This document shows, piece by piece, positions 2,135 through 11,566 of a stretch of 32,790 nucleotides of DNA. The stretch covers positions 1 to 32,790 of the forward strand of contig JAIOPR010000098.1 of NCBI GenBank assembly GCA_021413805.1. Reading direction: 5' to 3'. Position numbers and translations under genes: made by a program. Below the pieces are notes generated by a model. It saw only the letters and a program-made list of their open reading frames with translations. It was not told the DNA's origin and made no database searches. Numbering within the stretch: the stretch's first letter is position 1; each line of letters begins with the position of its first letter. The DNA is from Planctomycetota bacterium. Lineage in GTDB: Bacteria; Planctomycetota; MHYJ01; WSZJ01.

Positions 2135-2163
2135 TTGACAAGCAGACGTTTATAGTCAATAAT
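2135..2163 (+). promoter_or_regulatory. Sigma-70-type promoter of radA
   Basis: A perfect TTGACA (2135-2140) is followed after 17 nt by AATAAT (2158-2163, five of six consensus bases). This is the best housekeeping promoter in the window and points at radA, whose Shine-Dalgarno lies about 40 nt downstream. It shares the intergenic space with the divergent bPH2 promoter. Confidence 0.7.
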
Positions 2164-2212
2164 GGCGGTTGATGTAGTATCCACAGAACACATATATGAT
2201 ATAGGAGCACCC

Positions 2213-3589
2213 ATGCCCCGCCCCAAGCCGTCCTTCTGCTGCCTTCACTGCGGCCACTCCGCCTCCAAGCGCCTCGGCCGCTGCCCGACCTGCGGCGAAT
2301 GGAACTGTTTCGAGGCCGACCTCGCACCGGCCGCCGATCCCGCGGGCTGGGCCGTGGGCCGGGACCGCGTCCGCCCCCTGCCCGACGTCCCTGCTTCCGC
2401 CGAAGAGCGGTTCCCCAGCGGGTCGAGGGAGATCGACCGGGTGCTGGGCGGCGGATTCGTCCGGGGCTCGGCCGTCCTCGTCGGGGGCGACCCCGGCGTC
2501 GGGAAATCGACGCTGATGCTCCAGGCGGCGGAGCGCGTCGCCCGGGCCGGGAAAATCGTGCTCTACCTGTCAGGGGAAGAATCGGCCGCCCAGGTGGCGA
2601 TGCGCGCACGCCGGATCGGGGCTGCGGCCCCCACGCTGCTGGTGGGAAGCGGCACGAACCTGGTCGAATTCGCCGCCGAGATCGCCGCCCGGCGGCCGGA
2701 TCTCGTCATCATCGATTCCATCCAGACGGTCGCGCTTCCGGAAATTCCGTCCATCCCCGGCTCCCTGACCCAGGTCCGGGAGTGTGCAGCCAGGCTCACC
2801 GGCGCAGCGAAAACTGCGGGGCACGCGCTGGTCCTGATCGGGCACGTCACCAAGGAAGGCTCCGTCGCCGGTCCGCGAACGCTGGAACACCTCGTGGACG
2901 CGGTGCTCTACCTCGAGGGCGACCGCCTCCAGGACTACCGGCTCCTCCGCGGCGTGAAAAATCGCTTCGGCTCCACCGGCGAAATCGGGATCTTTGAAAT
3001 GTCCGCCATCGGCCTCACCGACGTTGCAAATCCCTCGCGTTACTTCCTTTCCCGCTCCCCTGTCGCGTTACCGGGCGTCGTCGTCACCCCCACGCTCGTC
3101 GGGACACGGACGCTTCTCGTGGACGTGCAGGCCCTCACGACGAAGACAGGCTACGGCACGCCGGCCCGAAGAGCGAACGGCGTGGACGCCACCAGGCTGG
3201 CTGTCCTGCTGGCGGTGCTCGAGAAGCGCGCCGGTCTCCAGATTTCGGGGGAGGACGTCTTCGTCGCGACCGCCGGCGGCGTGAAACTGGAGGAATCGTC
3301 CAGCGACCTGGCCGTGGCGCTCGCGGTGGCGTCCGCCTTCCTCGACCGGGAGTTCCCGCACGATACCGCCGTCGTCGGGGAAATCGGGCTGGGAGGCGAG
3401 ATCCGGCCCTGCGGACCGCTGGAGGCGAGGGTGGAAGAGGCGGCGAGGCTCGGGTTCCGGCGCGTGTTGGTTCCCGGTCCCGGGGTGAAAGGTGGACACG
3501 GGATTGATGTCGAGGCGGTGGCGACAATTGAAGGCGCGCTTGAACGGCTTGGACCGCAGAGGGCTCAGAGAACGACTAGGAGGGCATGA
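2213..3589 (+). CDS. radA: DNA repair protein RadA
   Basis: RadA (Sms) is a RecA-like ATPase and DnaB-type branch-migration helicase that acts in recombinational repair. The 458-aa product has the N-terminal C4 zinc finger (CxxC at residues 10-13 and 24-27), Walker A GGDPGVGKST near residue 91, Walker B 'LVIIDSIQT', the RadA-specific KNRFG motif and a C-terminal Lon-protease-like domain ('VGEIGLGGEIRPC'). The start is the ATG at 2213, with Shine-Dalgarno AGGAG 6 nt upstream. An earlier in-frame ATG at 2162 lies inside the promoter. The last dozen residues (GPQRAQRTTRRA) are encoded by the left inverted repeat and adjoining DNA of an inserted element, so the native C-terminal tail has probably been replaced. 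The next gene starts 2 nt after the stop. Confidence 0.95.
   Translation: MPRPKPSFCCLHCGHSASKRLGRCPTCGEWNCFEADLAPAADPAGWAVGRDRVRPLPDVPASAEERFPSGSREIDRVLGGGFVRGSAVLVGGDPGVGKSTLMLQAAERVARAGKIVLYLSGEESAAQVAMRARRIGAAAPTLLVGSGTNLVEFAAEIAARRPDLVIIDSIQTVALPEIPSIPGSLTQVRECAARLTGAAKTAGHALVLIGHVTKEGSVAGPRTLEHLVDAVLYLEGDRLQDYRLLRGVKNRFGSTGEIGIFEMSAIGLTDVANPSRYFLSRSPVALPGVVVTPTLVGTRTLLVDVQALTTKTGYGTPARRANGVDATRLAVLLAVLEKRAGLQISGEDVFVATAGGVKLEESSSDLAVALAVASAFLDREFPHDTAVVGEIGLGGEIRPCGPLEARVEEAARLGFRRVLVPGPGVKGGHGIDVEAVATIEGALERLGPQRAQRTTRRA
3554..3572 (+). repeat. Left 19-bp inverted repeat
   Basis: CCGCAGAGGGCTCAGAGAA lies in the last codons of radA. It pairs with 3990-4008 (18/19 identity as reverse complement, one A/G mismatch at position 14). 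Confidence 0.75.
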
Positions 3590-3590
3590 G

Positions 3591-3956
3591 GTGTTTGATC
3601 CCGAAACCGACCAGATCATCGCCGCTGCGATTGAAGTTCACCGGTCACTCGGACCGGGACTGCTCGAATCCATTTACGAGGCCGCCCTGGTGACCGAATT
3701 CGAACTTCGTGGAATTCCGTTCGAACGCCAGCGGCCTGTCGATGTGATTTACAAGGATCAGATCATCAAGGGGCAGCGCATTGACCTGATTGTATTCGGC
3801 ACCGTGATCGTGGAAATCAAGTCGCAGCGCCCCAACCCTGAACTTTTTCGCGCTCAAACACTCTCGTACCTCCAGTGCTCAGGTCTAAGCCGTGCGTTGA
3901 TCCTCAATTTTGGTTTGCCCACGATGAAAGCCGGTATCGACCGCGTAGTTCGTTAA
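3591..3956 (+). CDS. GxxExxY protein, PD-(D/E)XK nuclease-like fold
   Basis: The 121-aa product starts at GTG 3591, preceded by a perfect AGGAGG (3578-3583) and lying 2 nt after the radA stop. An earlier ATG at 3492 would only translate radA in another frame. The family signature GLLESIY (G23, E26, Y29) is present, followed by 'RIDLIVFGTVIVEIKS', which gives D65...E75-x-K77, the catalytic pattern of the PD-(D/E)XK nuclease superfamily (PF13366-like). Length matches the family norm of about 120-130 aa. The biological role of GxxExxY proteins is not established. Lower GC than its neighbours and flanking inverted repeats suggest acquisition as a unit. Translation is probably coupled to radA. Confidence 0.85.
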   Translation: MFDPETDQIIAAAIEVHRSLGPGLLESIYEAALVTEFELRGIPFERQRPVDVIYKDQIIKGQRIDLIVFGTVIVEIKSQRPNPELFRAQTLSYLQCSGLSRALILNFGLPTMKAGIDRVVR

Positions 3957-3989
3957 CCCATAAATCCGTTCTCCTCTTTTCTCTCGTTT

Positions 3990-4008
3990 TTCTCCGAGCC
4001 CTCTGCGG
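3990..4008 (-). repeat. Right 19-bp inverted repeat
   Basis: Read on the minus strand this is CCGCAGAGGGCTCGGAGAA, matching the left repeat at 3554-3572 in 18 of 19 positions. It lies 34 nt after the GxxExxY stop codon, in otherwise pyrimidine-rich non-coding DNA. Confidence 0.75.
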
Positions 4009-4082
4009 CCCCGTCCGTTTTTGCGTCGTCACAAGCCCTTCTGCCCTTAACCACCTCTACTGCATTTTCCCCCGTCTCCGCA

Positions 4083-4098: not shown

Positions 4099-4524
4099 AT
4101 GTCCCCCACCACCCAGGACCGCCTCGTCAACCTCGCCTTCATCCTCGGCGCCTCCGGCCTGGTCACCGTCTCCGCCCTCGTCACCCCCTCCGCCTCCGGC
4201 ATGGGCACCCACGAGAAACTCGGCCTCCCCCCCTGCATGTTCCATAAATGGACCGGCATCCCCTGCTTCTCCTGCGGGATGACCACCTCCTGGGCCTGGA
4301 TGGCCCACGGCCACCCCTGGATGTCCTTCAAAACCCAGCCCATGGGCGCACTCCTCTTCCTCGCCACCATCGCCGCCGGTCTTCTTTCCCTTGTTTACCT
4401 CTTCCGCGGCGGCACCATCGAACGCCGCTTCTCGTCCCGCTACGGCGCTTCACTCACCATCGCTTTCTGGACCGGCCTGCTCGGCGGATGGGCCTACAAG
4501 ATCGTGGAGACCTTCGCGAAATGA
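4099..4524 (+). CDS. DUF2752 family membrane protein
   Basis: This 141-aa protein has three hydrophobic segments (about residues 8-28, 83-103 and 117-132). Between the first two it carries the DUF2752 signature 'CMFHKWTGIPCFSCGMTTSWAW', with conserved cysteines, TG(I/x)PC and CG.T. The function of the family is unknown; the cysteine pattern suggests a metal or disulfide site at the membrane. The stop overlaps the start of the following UDP-sugar dehydrogenase (ATGA), so the two are co-translated. A candidate -10 lies just upstream and there is no Shine-Dalgarno. Confidence 0.8.
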   Translation: MSPTTQDRLVNLAFILGASGLVTVSALVTPSASGMGTHEKLGLPPCMFHKWTGIPCFSCGMTTSWAWMAHGHPWMSFKTQPMGALLFLATIAAGLLSLVYLFRGGTIERRFSSRYGASLTIAFWTGLLGGWAYKIVETFAK

Positions 4525-7212: not shown

Positions 7213-9791
7213 TAACGGAAGCCTACGTGTCGCGTGGAGAAACCCGGACCCTGGCGTACCGCCTCGATCGATCCACCGGCGCGCTGAGGCTCGCTTCGGA
7301 CGAGGATGCCACGGTCGTGGAGATCGGAAGCGAAGTTCACGGGCTGCCGTTCTTCGACGACCGGATTCCCGTCGGCGACTACGTCCTGCGTTTCCGGTCC
7401 CGCGGATTCCTGACACGCGAACGCAAAGTCCGTGTCGAGCGGAACAAAGAAACCCGCGCGTGGGTCTCGATGGTCCCGACCGGGTTCCGCGCGGGACTTC
7501 GGGGGAACACTTTCGAAGGACCGATCGCCACGGGGGACATGGACGGCGACGGGGTGCCCGATGTCTCGACGCTTTGCATGCAGGAGCTGTACCGCCTGGA
7601 CGGGAAGTCCGGCGGGATTTCGCGGGCCACGATCGTTTCTGACCGCATCGGGGAAAGCGGCTGGGGCGCGATCCAGTGGGATGCGGACGGGTGCCCGGAC
7701 GACGCCCTGATCAGCAAGACGTCGCGCGGACTCGTCCTGGTCGTCCTTTCGGGGCGCGAAACGGGACCGGTGGCGCCGGGAGTCCAGGCCCCCCCGCAGA
7801 AGAAGATTTGGAGCACGGTTCTTGACCCGTCGCTCCTCGAGGAGAAGCACCGGATCGAGCCGCCCGTGGAATTCGCCGGGAATCTCTGGGTGCCGGTCCT
7901 GGACGGCATCCGCGTTTTCGAACACGGCACCGGCAAGGAAGGCCCGGCCATCCACACCGGCGGGGCCGAGAAACCACGCCTCCGCCGGATCGCGGGCGGC
8001 TCGGGCCTCCTCGCGCTCACGACCGGGAAACTCCGCCGATACGCCGCCGACGGGACCGAAGTCTGGTCGAAGGAACGCCCGGATCTCCTCGCGATCGCCG
8101 ATCGCCGCAACGCTCCCTTTGAGCCGGCCGCCGACGGGCTCGTCTTCGCTTATGGCTCCCGCCACGTTTTCGCCCTCCGGGTCGCCGACGCTTCCGTCGC
8201 CTGGGAAGAATCCGACCCCGACCATGATTTCTCCGCATTCCTGGCCGACTCGGCCCCGGCGACGCCCCGGACGGTCTTCCTTTCCGGCAGCGGCTCCGTC
8301 CAGGCACGCGACGCTTCCACCGGCCGCTCCACGCTTCCACCCTTTCCCGTCGATCCCGCTGTCTGGAACCAGAGCGCCGTCACCGACACGGCACTCTTCT
8401 ACATCCGCGATGGCGAGCTCGTCTGCCTTGATACTCGAAGCGGCGCGAAACTGTGGGCCAACGCGCTTCCGGCCCCCTCCACCGCATTTCCCTCGGCCTG
8501 CGACGGGCCCGATGGTCCCGAGTACTGGTACACGACGGGAGACGGGCGCCTCCTGGTCCTCGCGGGTGGCCGGCTCCCCCGCGAAGTCCCGCTTTCGTTC
8601 ACCCCGCGGCAGGTGACTCTTCGCCCCCTCGACGCCGACGGGCGGCCCGAAGCCATCCTCGTCGGCTACGGCCTGCAGGTCGTGAATTCCACGCGGATGC
8701 TCTGGAAGCGCCGGGGGACGAACAACATGCGCCCGAGGCCGGTCGTCTTCGACGCGGGCAAAGGCAAGGCCGTTGTCGAGATTGGCCGCTGGGAAAATGG
8801 GGTGAAGGAGGCTCGCGCATTTGCGGCCGAAACCGGCGAACTGCTCTGGGGAGTCGGCGGCGAGTACGACGTCATGCTCGAGCCCGCCCTGTTCGACATC
8901 GACGGCGACGGCACGCTGGACGTCCTGACCCAGCAGCAGGTGAAGGAACTGACCGACCCGACCGTGTCGTTCGTGGCGCTCAGCGGACGCGACGGCCATC
9001 TGCTGAAGTCGATCGTGATTCCATTTACGCCCTATCCCCCCGCGATCCGCATCGATACAGGCGCCGCGATTCCCGAATTTCTCATCTGCCCGTGGGCCGA
9101 AGGGCTTATTGGTTTCCATTTCGGCGGGGACAAGCCGACGTGGAAATCCCACCTCGATCGCCCGATTTTCAGCACGCCACTCATCTTTCCCGGCGCCACC
9201 ACGGAGAAGCGGATGATCGTCGCGGCGCTCGCAGCGAGCCATCCGGAGGAAGGTGCCGTCGCCGCGTGGAGCATGGATGGCAAAGCGCTCTGGACCACGC
9301 CGCTCGCCGACATCACCTGGGGTTCCCCGTTCCCGTTCGACACGGACGGCGACGGCACGCCCGAGATCCTGGTACCGGGGCGCGCGAACATTTCCGTCCT
9401 GTCTGCGGACGGCAAACTCCTCACCACCTGGAACGGTCTGGGCGGCACCTCCGTCTCACCCACCCTGCTCCCCGACGGGTTCGTCACCGGCCTCCGGACC
9501 GGCGTCGCCCGCGCCCGCCGCGACGGCACCACGGTCTGGACCTATCCCTGCGCCTTCGTGACCGGCACCCTGGCCATCGCCGCCCTCCCCGGATCCTCGA
9601 CCCCCACCGTCATCGGCATCGACTGGAACGGCCGGCTCTTCTGCCTCGACCTCGACTCCGGCGCCGAACGCTGGCGCGTCGAAACCGGCGCACGCTGCGA
9701 GCACGGCGTGACGGTGGCGGACGTGGGCGGAATTCCCGTCGCCTTCATCGGAAGCGACGACTTCACTTTGTATGCATTCGACCTGAGGTAG
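7116..9791 (+). CDS. Extracytoplasmic propeller half of the kinase (continuation after the frameshift)
   Basis: About 890 codons are open in the frame one base behind the kinase frame. The first residues, VVEVDGKRVAGEARVPAGLH, complete the PEGA-like strand begun at 7080-7110. A second PEGA-like unit follows, then a large propeller with repeated DxDGDGxxD calcium-type loops (DMDGDGVPD, FDIDGDGTLD, FDTDGDGTPE, PLDADGRPE) and PQQ-like blades (CLDTRSGAKLW, CLDLDSGAERW). There is no signal peptide, so on its own it could not be exported; fused to the kinase helix it would lie outside the membrane as a sensor. A GTG at 7227 with weak GGAAG upstream is the only plausible restart. Joining both parts gives a protein of roughly 1,311 aa. 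Confidence 0.75.
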   Translation: MVEVDGKRVAGEARVPAGLHRIATGADGFETLITEAYVSRGETRTLAYRLDRSTGALRLASDEDATVVEIGSEVHGLPFFDDRIPVGDYVLRFRSRGFLTRERKVRVERNKETRAWVSMVPTGFRAGLRGNTFEGPIATGDMDGDGVPDVSTLCMQELYRLDGKSGGISRATIVSDRIGESGWGAIQWDADGCPDDALISKTSRGLVLVVLSGRETGPVAPGVQAPPQKKIWSTVLDPSLLEEKHRIEPPVEFAGNLWVPVLDGIRVFEHGTGKEGPAIHTGGAEKPRLRRIAGGSGLLALTTGKLRRYAADGTEVWSKERPDLLAIADRRNAPFEPAADGLVFAYGSRHVFALRVADASVAWEESDPDHDFSAFLADSAPATPRTVFLSGSGSVQARDASTGRSTLPPFPVDPAVWNQSAVTDTALFYIRDGELVCLDTRSGAKLWANALPAPSTAFPSACDGPDGPEYWYTTGDGRLLVLAGGRLPREVPLSFTPRQVTLRPLDADGRPEAILVGYGLQVVNSTRMLWKRRGTNNMRPRPVVFDAGKGKAVVEIGRWENGVKEARAFAAETGELLWGVGGEYDVMLEPALFDIDGDGTLDVLTQQQVKELTDPTVSFVALSGRDGHLLKSIVIPFTPYPPAIRIDTGAAIPEFLICPWAEGLIGFHFGGDKPTWKSHLDRPIFSTPLIFPGATTEKRMIVAALAASHPEEGAVAAWSMDGKALWTTPLADITWGSPFPFDTDGDGTPEILVPGRANISVLSADGKLLTTWNGLGGTSVSPTLLPDGFVTGLRTGVARARRDGTTVWTYPCAFVTGTLAIAALPGSSTPTVIGIDWNGRLFCLDLDSGAERWRVETGARCEHGVTVADVGGIPVAFIGSDDFTLYAFDLR

Positions 9792-9792
9792 C

Positions 9793-9853
9793 AGCCCCGG
9801 CCGTTAGCCCCGGCCGTTAGCCCCGGCCGTCAGCCCCGGCCGTTAGCCCCGGC
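9793..9853 (+). repeat. 13-bp tandem repeat, about 4.7 copies
   Basis: The unit AGCCCCGGCCGTT begins at 9793, 9806, 9819, 9832 and 9845. The third copy ends in C instead of T, and the fifth is cut after nine bases. It fills the gap between the propeller stop codon and the nadE promoter. It is non-coding, and no T tract follows that would make it a normal intrinsic terminator. Confidence 0.9.
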
Positions 9854-9870
9854 CCTTCCGCCCGGCCTTC

Positions 9871-9885
9871 GTGTACAATTGACAC
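9871..9885 (+). promoter_or_regulatory. nadE -10 box with an overlapping GTGT-N7-ACAC palindrome (possible NrtR operator)
   Basis: TACAAT (9874-9879) sits 7 nt before the nadE ATG at 9887 and there is no Shine-Dalgarno, which fits a leaderless transcript. The same bases lie in an inverted repeat, GTGT at 9871-9874 and ACAC at 9882-9885 with a 7-nt centre. A repressor bound here would block RNA polymerase directly. Because an NrtR-like regulator is encoded by the next gene, this is a reasonable operator candidate, but the assignment is inference. Confidence 0.45.
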
Positions 9886-9886
9886 C

Positions 9887-11566
9887 ATGCGCATCGCCCT
9901 CGCCCAGATCAACTTCACCGTCGGCGACATCGACGGGAACGCCGACCGCATCATCGGCGCCCTCGCCCACGGCCGCGAACGCGGCGCCCGCCTCGTCGTC
10001 TTCAGCGAACTCGCCCTCACCGGCTACCCGCCGCGCGACCTCCTCCTCAAGCAGGATTTCGTCAAGGCCCAGCTCCGCGCCCTCGAACGCGTCCGCCGCG
10101 CTTCGAAACATATCGCCGCCGTCGTCGGCTTCGCCCAGCCCAACAAGGGCACCGGCCGACCGCTCTTCAATGCCGCCGCCCTCTTCGACAACGGCCGCCT
10201 CGTCCGCGTCGCCCGCAAGTCGCTGCTCCCGTTCTACGACGTGTTCGACGAAGAGCGCTATTTCGAGCGCGGCCGCCCAGACGGCGTGGCCACCATCGAT
10301 GGCGCGAAGCTCGGCATCTCCATCTGCGAGGACGCCTGGAACGACAAGGCGTACTGGCGCCGCCGCAACTACGCCCTCGACCCGATCGCCGCGCTCTCGA
10401 AGAAAGGCGCGAAGATCCTCGTCAATACCAGCGCTTCCCCGTACTGGACCGACAAGGGCGCGATCCGCCAGAAGATGCTGGCCTCGATCGCGAAGCACCG
10501 GCGTGCGCCGCTGGTGTTCGTGAACCAGGTCGGCGGCAACGACGACCTGATTTTTGACGGCCGGTCGTGCGCGTTCGACGCGAAAGGCCGGCTGCTGGCG
10601 AGGGCCGCGGCGTTCGCCGAGGATTTCGTCGTCGTCGATCTCGACGCCCCGCCGGGGGAAATCCGGCGCCAGCCCGCGAACGAAACGGCTGCGGTCTGGG
10701 AAGCGCTGGTCCTCGGGCTGCGCGATTACGTGCGCAAATGCGGCTTCACCGACGTCGTCCTCGGCCTCTCGGGCGGCGTCGATTCTTCGCTCGTCGCCGC
10801 CATCGCCGTCGAAGCGCTCGGCAAGGACCGCGTCCACGGCGTCCTCATGCCCAGCCGCTTCACCAGCGACGCGTCGAACGAAGACGCGGACGTGATGGCG
10901 AAAGCGCTGGGGATCGAAGCGCGGACGATCCCGATCGAAGGGCCGTTCAAGGCGTACCTGGAAGCGCTGACGCCGGCGTTCGCGGGGAGGGCGGCGGACG
11001 TGACGGAGGAAAATCTGCAGGCGCGGATCAGGGGCGCGACGCTGATGGCGCTCTCGAACAAGTTCGGGTGGCTGGTGCTGACGACGGGAAACAAGAGCGA
11101 GCTCGCGACGGGGTACTGCACGCTTTACGGGGACATGTGCGGCGGGCTCGCGGTGATCAGCGACATCCCGAAGATGCTCGTTTACGCCTTGACCCGCCAC
11201 GCAAACCGCGAAAAGGCCGTCGTTCCCGAGCGAGTCTTCACCAAGGCACCGACCGCCGAGCTGCGCGCGAACCAGACCGACCAGGACAGCCTCCCGCCCT
11301 ACGACGTGCTCGACGCGATCCTCGACCGCTACGTCACGAATGACGAGGACCCGGCGAAGATCGTGAAGCGCGGGTTCGACGCCGCGACGGTGGCGAAGGT
11401 CGTCCGCATGGTGGACCGCAACGAGTACAAGCGCCGGCAGATGCCGCCCGGGCTCAAGGTCACCCCGCGCGCCTTCGGCCAGGGCCGCCGCCTCCCCGTC
11501 GCGCAGAGCTACCACCCCGAACTGCGCGCCGGGGCTCCCGCCGCCCGCAAGAGAAAGAAATCCTGA
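9887..11566 (+). CDS. nadE: Glutamine-dependent NAD+ synthetase
   Basis: The product performs the last step of NAD synthesis, amidating nicotinic acid adenine dinucleotide with ATP and using ammonia released from glutamine. The 559-aa protein has both domains. Residues 1-260 form the nitrilase-type glutaminase with the triad E41 (FSELALTGYPP), K111 (RKSLLPFYDVFDE) and C147 (GISICEDAW). Residues 270-540 form the synthetase with the PP-loop SGGVDSS (295-301), 'TTGNKSELATGYCTLYGDM' and 'PPSAELR'-type 'PTAELRANQTDQDSLPPY'. Length suits the two-domain bacterial form. The C-terminus is Lys/Arg-rich. The stop overlaps the start of the NrtR-like gene by one base (TGATG), so the two form an operon. 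Confidence 0.96.
   Translation: MRIALAQINFTVGDIDGNADRIIGALAHGRERGARLVVFSELALTGYPPRDLLLKQDFVKAQLRALERVRRASKHIAAVVGFAQPNKGTGRPLFNAAALFDNGRLVRVARKSLLPFYDVFDEERYFERGRPDGVATIDGAKLGISICEDAWNDKAYWRRRNYALDPIAALSKKGAKILVNTSASPYWTDKGAIRQKMLASIAKHRRAPLVFVNQVGGNDDLIFDGRSCAFDAKGRLLARAAAFAEDFVVVDLDAPPGEIRRQPANETAAVWEALVLGLRDYVRKCGFTDVVLGLSGGVDSSLVAAIAVEALGKDRVHGVLMPSRFTSDASNEDADVMAKALGIEARTIPIEGPFKAYLEALTPAFAGRAADVTEENLQARIRGATLMALSNKFGWLVLTTGNKSELATGYCTLYGDMCGGLAVISDIPKMLVYALTRHANREKAVVPERVFTKAPTAELRANQTDQDSLPPYDVLDAILDRYVTNDEDPAKIVKRGFDAATVAKVVRMVDRNEYKRRQMPPGLKVTPRAFGQGRRLPVAQSYHPELRAGAPAARKRKKS

Follow-up and report, generated by a model that had tools for sequence, protein, structure and literature searches.

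In REPIN-RAYT systems the spreading unit is an inverted doublet of a short repeat, and singlets are likely remnants (Bertels & Rainey 2011, PMC3116915). The REP repeat is an imperfect palindrome that carries a GTAG or CGTC tag, and the associated RAYT proteins are HUH/Y1 tyrosine transposases (PMC3116915). IS elements and MITEs are bounded by terminal inverted ends, occur as an autonomous form with a gene and as shorter gene-less derivatives with matching ends, and can be nested. Homing endonucleases of the PD-(D/E)XK type are small nuclease genes that persist as selfish inserts within self-splicing introns or inteins. The element described here shares features with all of these systems and carries a gene of the GxxExxY family (TIGR04256/PF13366), whose members are widespread and, to our knowledge, have no known role. 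A description of GxxExxY function or of end sequences around GxxExxY genes was not found in the open-access literature, nor were the repeat strings reported below mentioned there (subscription papers and preprints lay outside the scope of the search); the family name itself turned up in 2 of 5.39 million open papers, neither of which dealt with function. From the comparisons that follow we consider it probable that the locus holds one copy of a two-ended mobile element in which GxxExxY serves as the cognate nuclease of a REPIN-like system. The mobility of the element is well supported by sequence comparison, and the nuclease is its putative mover.

The window, that is the whole stretch of 32,790 nucleotides that was analysed, corresponds to C114, a contig in a draft genome of 4.57 Mb. 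The first-pass annotation had described a single gene enclosed by inverted repeats at the 3′ terminus of radA; the repeats lie where it had placed them, at 3554-3572 and 3990-4008, with 18 of 19 positions identical; a repeat search extends the arms to 3543-3579 and 3983-4019 at 78% identity. A three-block scan of the 32.8 kb found no other inverted repeat of at least 18/19 with a span of at most 600, nor did 12 simulated sequences of 12 kb each contain one. The host gene radA/sms (2162-3589, forward strand; TIGR00416, E 3e-149), whose true start is likely an internal ATG near 2213, ends at TGA 3587-3589, so that its final 11 codons (PQRAQRTTRRA) begin inside the left arm (from 3554); the left repeat does supply the last RadA codons, as had been proposed. 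The GxxExxY (PDDEXK_3) gene on the same strand encodes 121 aa, starts at GTG 3591 and has a stop codon ending at 3956 (PF13366, 3.8e-34; TIGR04256, 2.5e-35). Its Shine-Dalgarno sequence AGGAGG, likewise noted earlier and read from the sequence, occupies 3578-3583 within the radA frame, 7 nt before the GTG, and its GC content is lower than that of radA, as a hand count had indicated (54% with GC3 61.5%, against 69% with GC3 82%). On the right flank follows a host DUF2752 gene (4099-4524, forward strand; PF10825, 3.8e-14).

The 19-bp repeat of the first-pass annotation is real, but it is the visible part of two heptamer arrays of period [9,9] and not one word. The left array (3554-3579, forward strand) consists of CGCAGAG (3555-3561), CTCAGAG (3564-3570) and CGACTAG (3573-3579), and the right array (3983-4008, reverse strand) of CGCAGAG (4001-4007), CTCGGAG (3992-3998) and AAACGAG (3983-3989), with gg and aa as the successive spacers in both. 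Since the third unit is decayed at each end, the window copy may be old, though its gene is intact.

The encoded protein is a full member of its family, scoring 121.3 bits (cut-off 35) and 118 bits (cut-off 22) for TIGR04256/PF13366. The nuclease-like motif first recognized by eye, D65 (3783-3785), E75 (3813-3815) and K77 (3819-3821), proved invariant in an alignment of six relatives. An AlphaFold model built from this six-sequence alignment reached a pLDDT of 82.6, and its best matches among solved structures were a lambda-type exonuclease (LHK-Exo), Cas4-like proteins and BglII, all of them weak (E at least 0.014); no sequence relative with a solved structure was found. A D...ExK motif on a predicted core alpha/beta fold places the protein in the PD-(D/E)XK superfamily, unlike the RAYTs, which are HUH enzymes. 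The HUH (Y1) tyrosine transposase signature is absent, profile matches were to PDDEXK_3/GxxExxY only, and none of the PADLOC profiles of known anti-phage defence proteins matched.

Similar ends were sought around other GxxExxY genes, using 78 loci from the window's own genome (7 genes) and its relatives and a wider set of 111 loci drawn from relatives, Bacteroidota, Alphaproteobacteria, Gemmatimonadota and Spirochaetota. The best match between the upstream flank and the inverted downstream flank had a median of 22.5 at the 78 loci and of 11.5 in the controls (4,658 same-contig controls at equal spacing and 265 cross-locus controls within one genome), and the ends thus recur, as the first-pass annotation had anticipated. 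At most of the 111 loci each flank carries about three heptamers with the consensus CRCNRAD, spaced 8-11 nt and mostly facing inward; a common form in the alignments is ACCACAGAT NNN CACAGAT NNN CACAGAT, inward on both flanks. The same structure is found in Bacteroidota (L069-L072, Bacteroides finegoldii) and in Sphingomonas (fabD-GxxExxY-fabG); in Gemmatirosa it is built on a different word, and in Treponema it is weaker. About half of the loci are without two clear three-unit arrays under a strict score, 15 of the 111 show no shared unit at all, and at some, several of them in the window's genus, the arrays read outward or other, ATCC-rich words take their place. Lag autocorrelation gave a modest signal only, because the spacing varies between loci.

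Within a locus the two arrays agree closely. Strong arrays were present on either flank at 53 of the 111 loci. The left and right spacing vectors of these 53 were equal in 46 cases, against a permutation mean of 9.7 and a maximum of 19 in 5,000 permutations, and the heptamers differed at 2.3 of 21 letters compared with 7.4 after shuffling. Left/right identity was 91% at heptamer positions and 57.5% at spacer positions, a difference that favours recognition of the heptamers over base pairing of the arms. Heptamer positions 2, 5 and 7 are constant within a locus and variable between loci, and position 4 is looser; the array score rewards C1, a purine at 2, C3 and A6, but neither position 5 nor left/right agreement, and an earlier template-free search for units recovered the same words. 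Distances between the proteins correlate with those between their units (Mantel r 0.17) and between their spacings (r 0.24), in each case more strongly than in any of 1,000 permutations, a correlation that could stem from co-inheritance instead of recognition. On G205 contig C1 (L192-L251) 17 of 63 arrays have the string CAACTGC 4-14 nt beyond their outer edge, in constant orientation, where about 0.3 would be expected; it would be a longer end or a target motif in this genus.

Arrays also occur as pairs that enclose no gene. Across the 1.37 Mb of sequence that surrounds the loci, adjacent arrays were convergent in 66 cases and otherwise arranged in 14, and the convergent pairs comprised 25 gene-less ones (gap <200) and 41 of gene size, nearly all with GxxExxY. 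Because these sequences had been chosen around GxxExxY, 1.2 Mb of the related genome G205 was added as an unbiased sample, and it contained 73 arrays against 2 in a reversed-sequence control, with 25 convergent neighbours and 12 others. Gene-less pairs (gap <250) made up 21 of those 25; the three gene-sized pairs (gaps of 398-433 bp) hold two intact GxxExxY genes and a decayed one, and the remaining, wider pair (942 bp) encloses another ORF. The gene-less derivatives consist of two convergent arrays and measure about 60-220 bp overall. When the distinct gene-less pairs of G205 were compared with 240 GxxExxY arms from many genomes, 12 of 17 found their best match in an arm of G205 itself, although these arms formed 9% of the set, the chance per pair (binomial 1.4e-9); most of the others matched arms from the same family of genomes, and the match can exceed the array, as in GGCCACAAAAACACGAAAGCACAAAA-GGTACTGCC. 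One gene-less pair of G205 stands in five tandem copies, 282 bp apart (C1:126185-127620, L198).

In the window's own genome the element end recurs at about 11 other places, and the search for dispersed ends that had been advised yielded gene-less pairs as well: a convergent pair of the window type on contig C116 and, on C355, another with a nested pair of the type that flanks the GxxExxY gene of C268. Since gene-less paired arrays are scattered in the same genomes, the GxxExxY unit looks like the master copy of an undescribed mobile family. Occasionally convergent arrays enclose a different ORF. Beside a GxxExxY copy in L187 (10255-10762) the same arrays flank an ORF of 143 aa with a weak match to Mrr-type restriction nucleases (E 0.05, below cut-off), and of two further pairs with other ORFs (L191, 5569-6197; L177, 2521-2905) one has a PD...ExK-like string (LPDLLIPQEWAIEVK) and one is without a family match; family searches gave no significant match for any of the three ORFs.

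Among 196 genomes of the phylum, GxxExxY was found in 23 of the 26 that are array-rich (five or more matches to a single array pattern) and in 70 of the 170 others (p 4e-6). Related genomes in this comparison are not independent, and only some types of array are captured by the pattern, which gave no hit in the window's own genome. In three array-rich genomes (G040, G055, G092) GxxExxY was not detected. An independent set of 181 viral-contig loci, fetched by the array pattern alone (L265-L405 and further loci), contained 265 arrays, of which 232 could be judged; 117 of these had a convergent partner within 200 bp. Up to 900 bp outward, a divergent partner was present for about 9% and one in the same orientation for 8%. 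Gene-less array pairs are thus common on predicted viral contigs. GxxExxY was found at none of the 181 loci, though the profile recovers its own members, a pattern that fits non-autonomous copies and leaves room for a different mover. Spread of GxxExxY itself by phages was considered and rejected, as no relative was present in phage records, in viral contigs or at these 181 loci.

Such a mover is the basis of the strongest alternative, in which the arrays are moved by host replication or repair or by another enzyme and GxxExxY is a passenger repeatedly caught between them. It would account for the excess of gene-less over gene-bearing pairs, for the pairs without GxxExxY on viral contigs and in the three array-rich genomes, and for the other ORFs inside a few pairs, yet GxxExxY fills most gene-sized pairs, and PD-(D/E)XK-like strings are present in two of the exceptions. 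As the type of end also tracks the protein phylogeny, and the gene-less types match the GxxExxY ends of the same genome, we regard this alternative as unlikely and keep to GxxExxY as the probable cognate nuclease.

The positions of the elements bear on their movement. Insertion at gene ends, first suggested from the window alone, is general: 57 of 75 elements lie behind a co-directional gene, with the left arm at a median of 5 bp past its stop codon, as judged by simple ORF-based gene finding. At radA, the gene ends normally in one genome of the same genus (G004) and two of the same order (G005 and G006), where the DUF2752 gene follows directly and no repeat is present. Another genome of the genus (G002) has the orthologous order radA-GxxExxY-DUF2752 with clear ends, AACCACAGAGGACACAGAG...CTCTGCGCCCTCTGTGGTT; the counterpart of the window's left array reads ACCACAGAGGACACAGAG, in clear CACAGAG arrays. 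A decayed copy occupies the radA locus of G001, and the radA copy is common to two or three species of the genus. The empty site that the first-pass annotation had advised looking for therefore exists, and comparison of empty with occupied loci indicates that the DNA was gained, or lost, as one unit; in the occupied loci the final radA codons come from its left end. In Bacteroides finegoldii (L165) a GxxExxY element likewise lies behind radA, seemingly independent of that in the window.

Elsewhere, a 427-bp composite element of G205, with copies 92-93% identical at other places in that genome, is missing in G126 of the same genus, where 9 bp occupy the orthologous place. A 202-bp stretch that contains a gene-less pair, at a distance of 3 kb, is likewise missing; the comparison rests on coordinates. 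A 27-bp exact copy of the 3′ end of the upstream gene flanks the GxxExxY element of L189 on both sides (around 9720-10310), and the orthologous site in L187 is empty. Apart from this case, duplications at 91 loci were not above control, so the target duplication that the first-pass annotation had also advised looking for is not general. At other orthologous gaps GxxExxY is present in one genome and a different inverted pair in the other, which shows reuse of the slots. Inverted array classes of the CAATTACCAAT and CCCAAAACCC types fill the same gaps without GxxExxY (at the sites in G205 orthologous to L184/L178, and at L189 6350-6700).

Placement just past stop codons could also be read as the mark of control sites, such as mRNA hairpins or terminators, spread by selection and not by mobility, with GxxExxY as a domesticated host or regulatory nuclease. 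The gene-less pairs do fold as strong hairpins (z -7.5), and the sharing of the radA copy among species of one genus is in keeping with such a role; single arrays, however, form no hairpin (z -0.15), the two arms agree less in their spacers than in their heptamers, and multicopy families, nesting and presence/absence differences fit mobility, so that we find this improbable. That the window repeats are ordinary 3′-end or terminator DNA beside which GxxExxY lies by chance is hardly credible, for although the window arms are decayed relative to other loci, the repeats are absent from the empty orthologues, the orthologous G002 element has clear arrays, and paired ends recur at most GxxExxY loci. 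The earlier interpretation as a mobile unit is, overall, supported.

As a two-ended mobile element with GxxExxY as its nuclease, the locus can be set against the systems named at the outset. Its organization is REPIN-like: inverted doublets are extragenic, over-represented and form hairpins as doublets, and singlets are likely remnants. The same repeats stand on both sides of the gene, and one genome can hold several types, each linked to a gene of its own. Unlike in REP, the single array is not palindromic, carries neither GTAG nor CGTC (0 of 73 for each), and consists of three spaced heptamers whose spacing is set per locus. With no HUH enzyme, palindrome or tag, the system is best treated, on present analysis, as an analogue of REPIN-RAYT that stands outside the group. 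Like IS elements and MITEs it has autonomous and gene-less forms whose terminal inverted ends match, but it has no DDE or tyrosine/serine transposase and no general target duplication (the 91 loci equalled the control), and its ends are made of spaced repeats. Like the homing endonucleases it is a selfish insert with a small nuclease gene; unlike them it is sited between genes at stop codons, here between radA and the next gene, where an Rfam search found no significant known RNA or intron, and gene-less forms with cognate ends spread.

A mechanism can be proposed on this basis. Each GxxExxY protein would probably recognize its own heptamer and spacing, one subunit or module binding each heptamer, and the two element ends would be brought together. 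The PD-(D/E)XK site may then cut or nick DNA at the ends, at the target or at both, and the element, together with gene-less derivatives in trans, would be copied or moved into short gaps after stop codons. Recognition and cleavage of DNA by GxxExxY, and its part in the movement, are predictions of this proposal. Whether GxxExxYs at large are the mobilizing nucleases of an undescribed, phylum-spanning class of mobile DNA, each reading its own three-heptamer word and spacing (a CRCNRAD code) and spreading REPIN-like gene-less pairs, is to our minds an evenly balanced question.

No explanation was found in the open-access literature for repeats of the CACAGAG, CACGAAG and CGCAGAT types around GxxExxY. 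The link between repeat and protein gives an orphan nuclease family a testable function, and would place beside REPIN-RAYT a second system of REPIN-like type whose enzyme, a PD-(D/E)XK protein, is unrelated. Its natural combinations of protein, DNA word and spacing may serve as a source from which a recognition code can be read.
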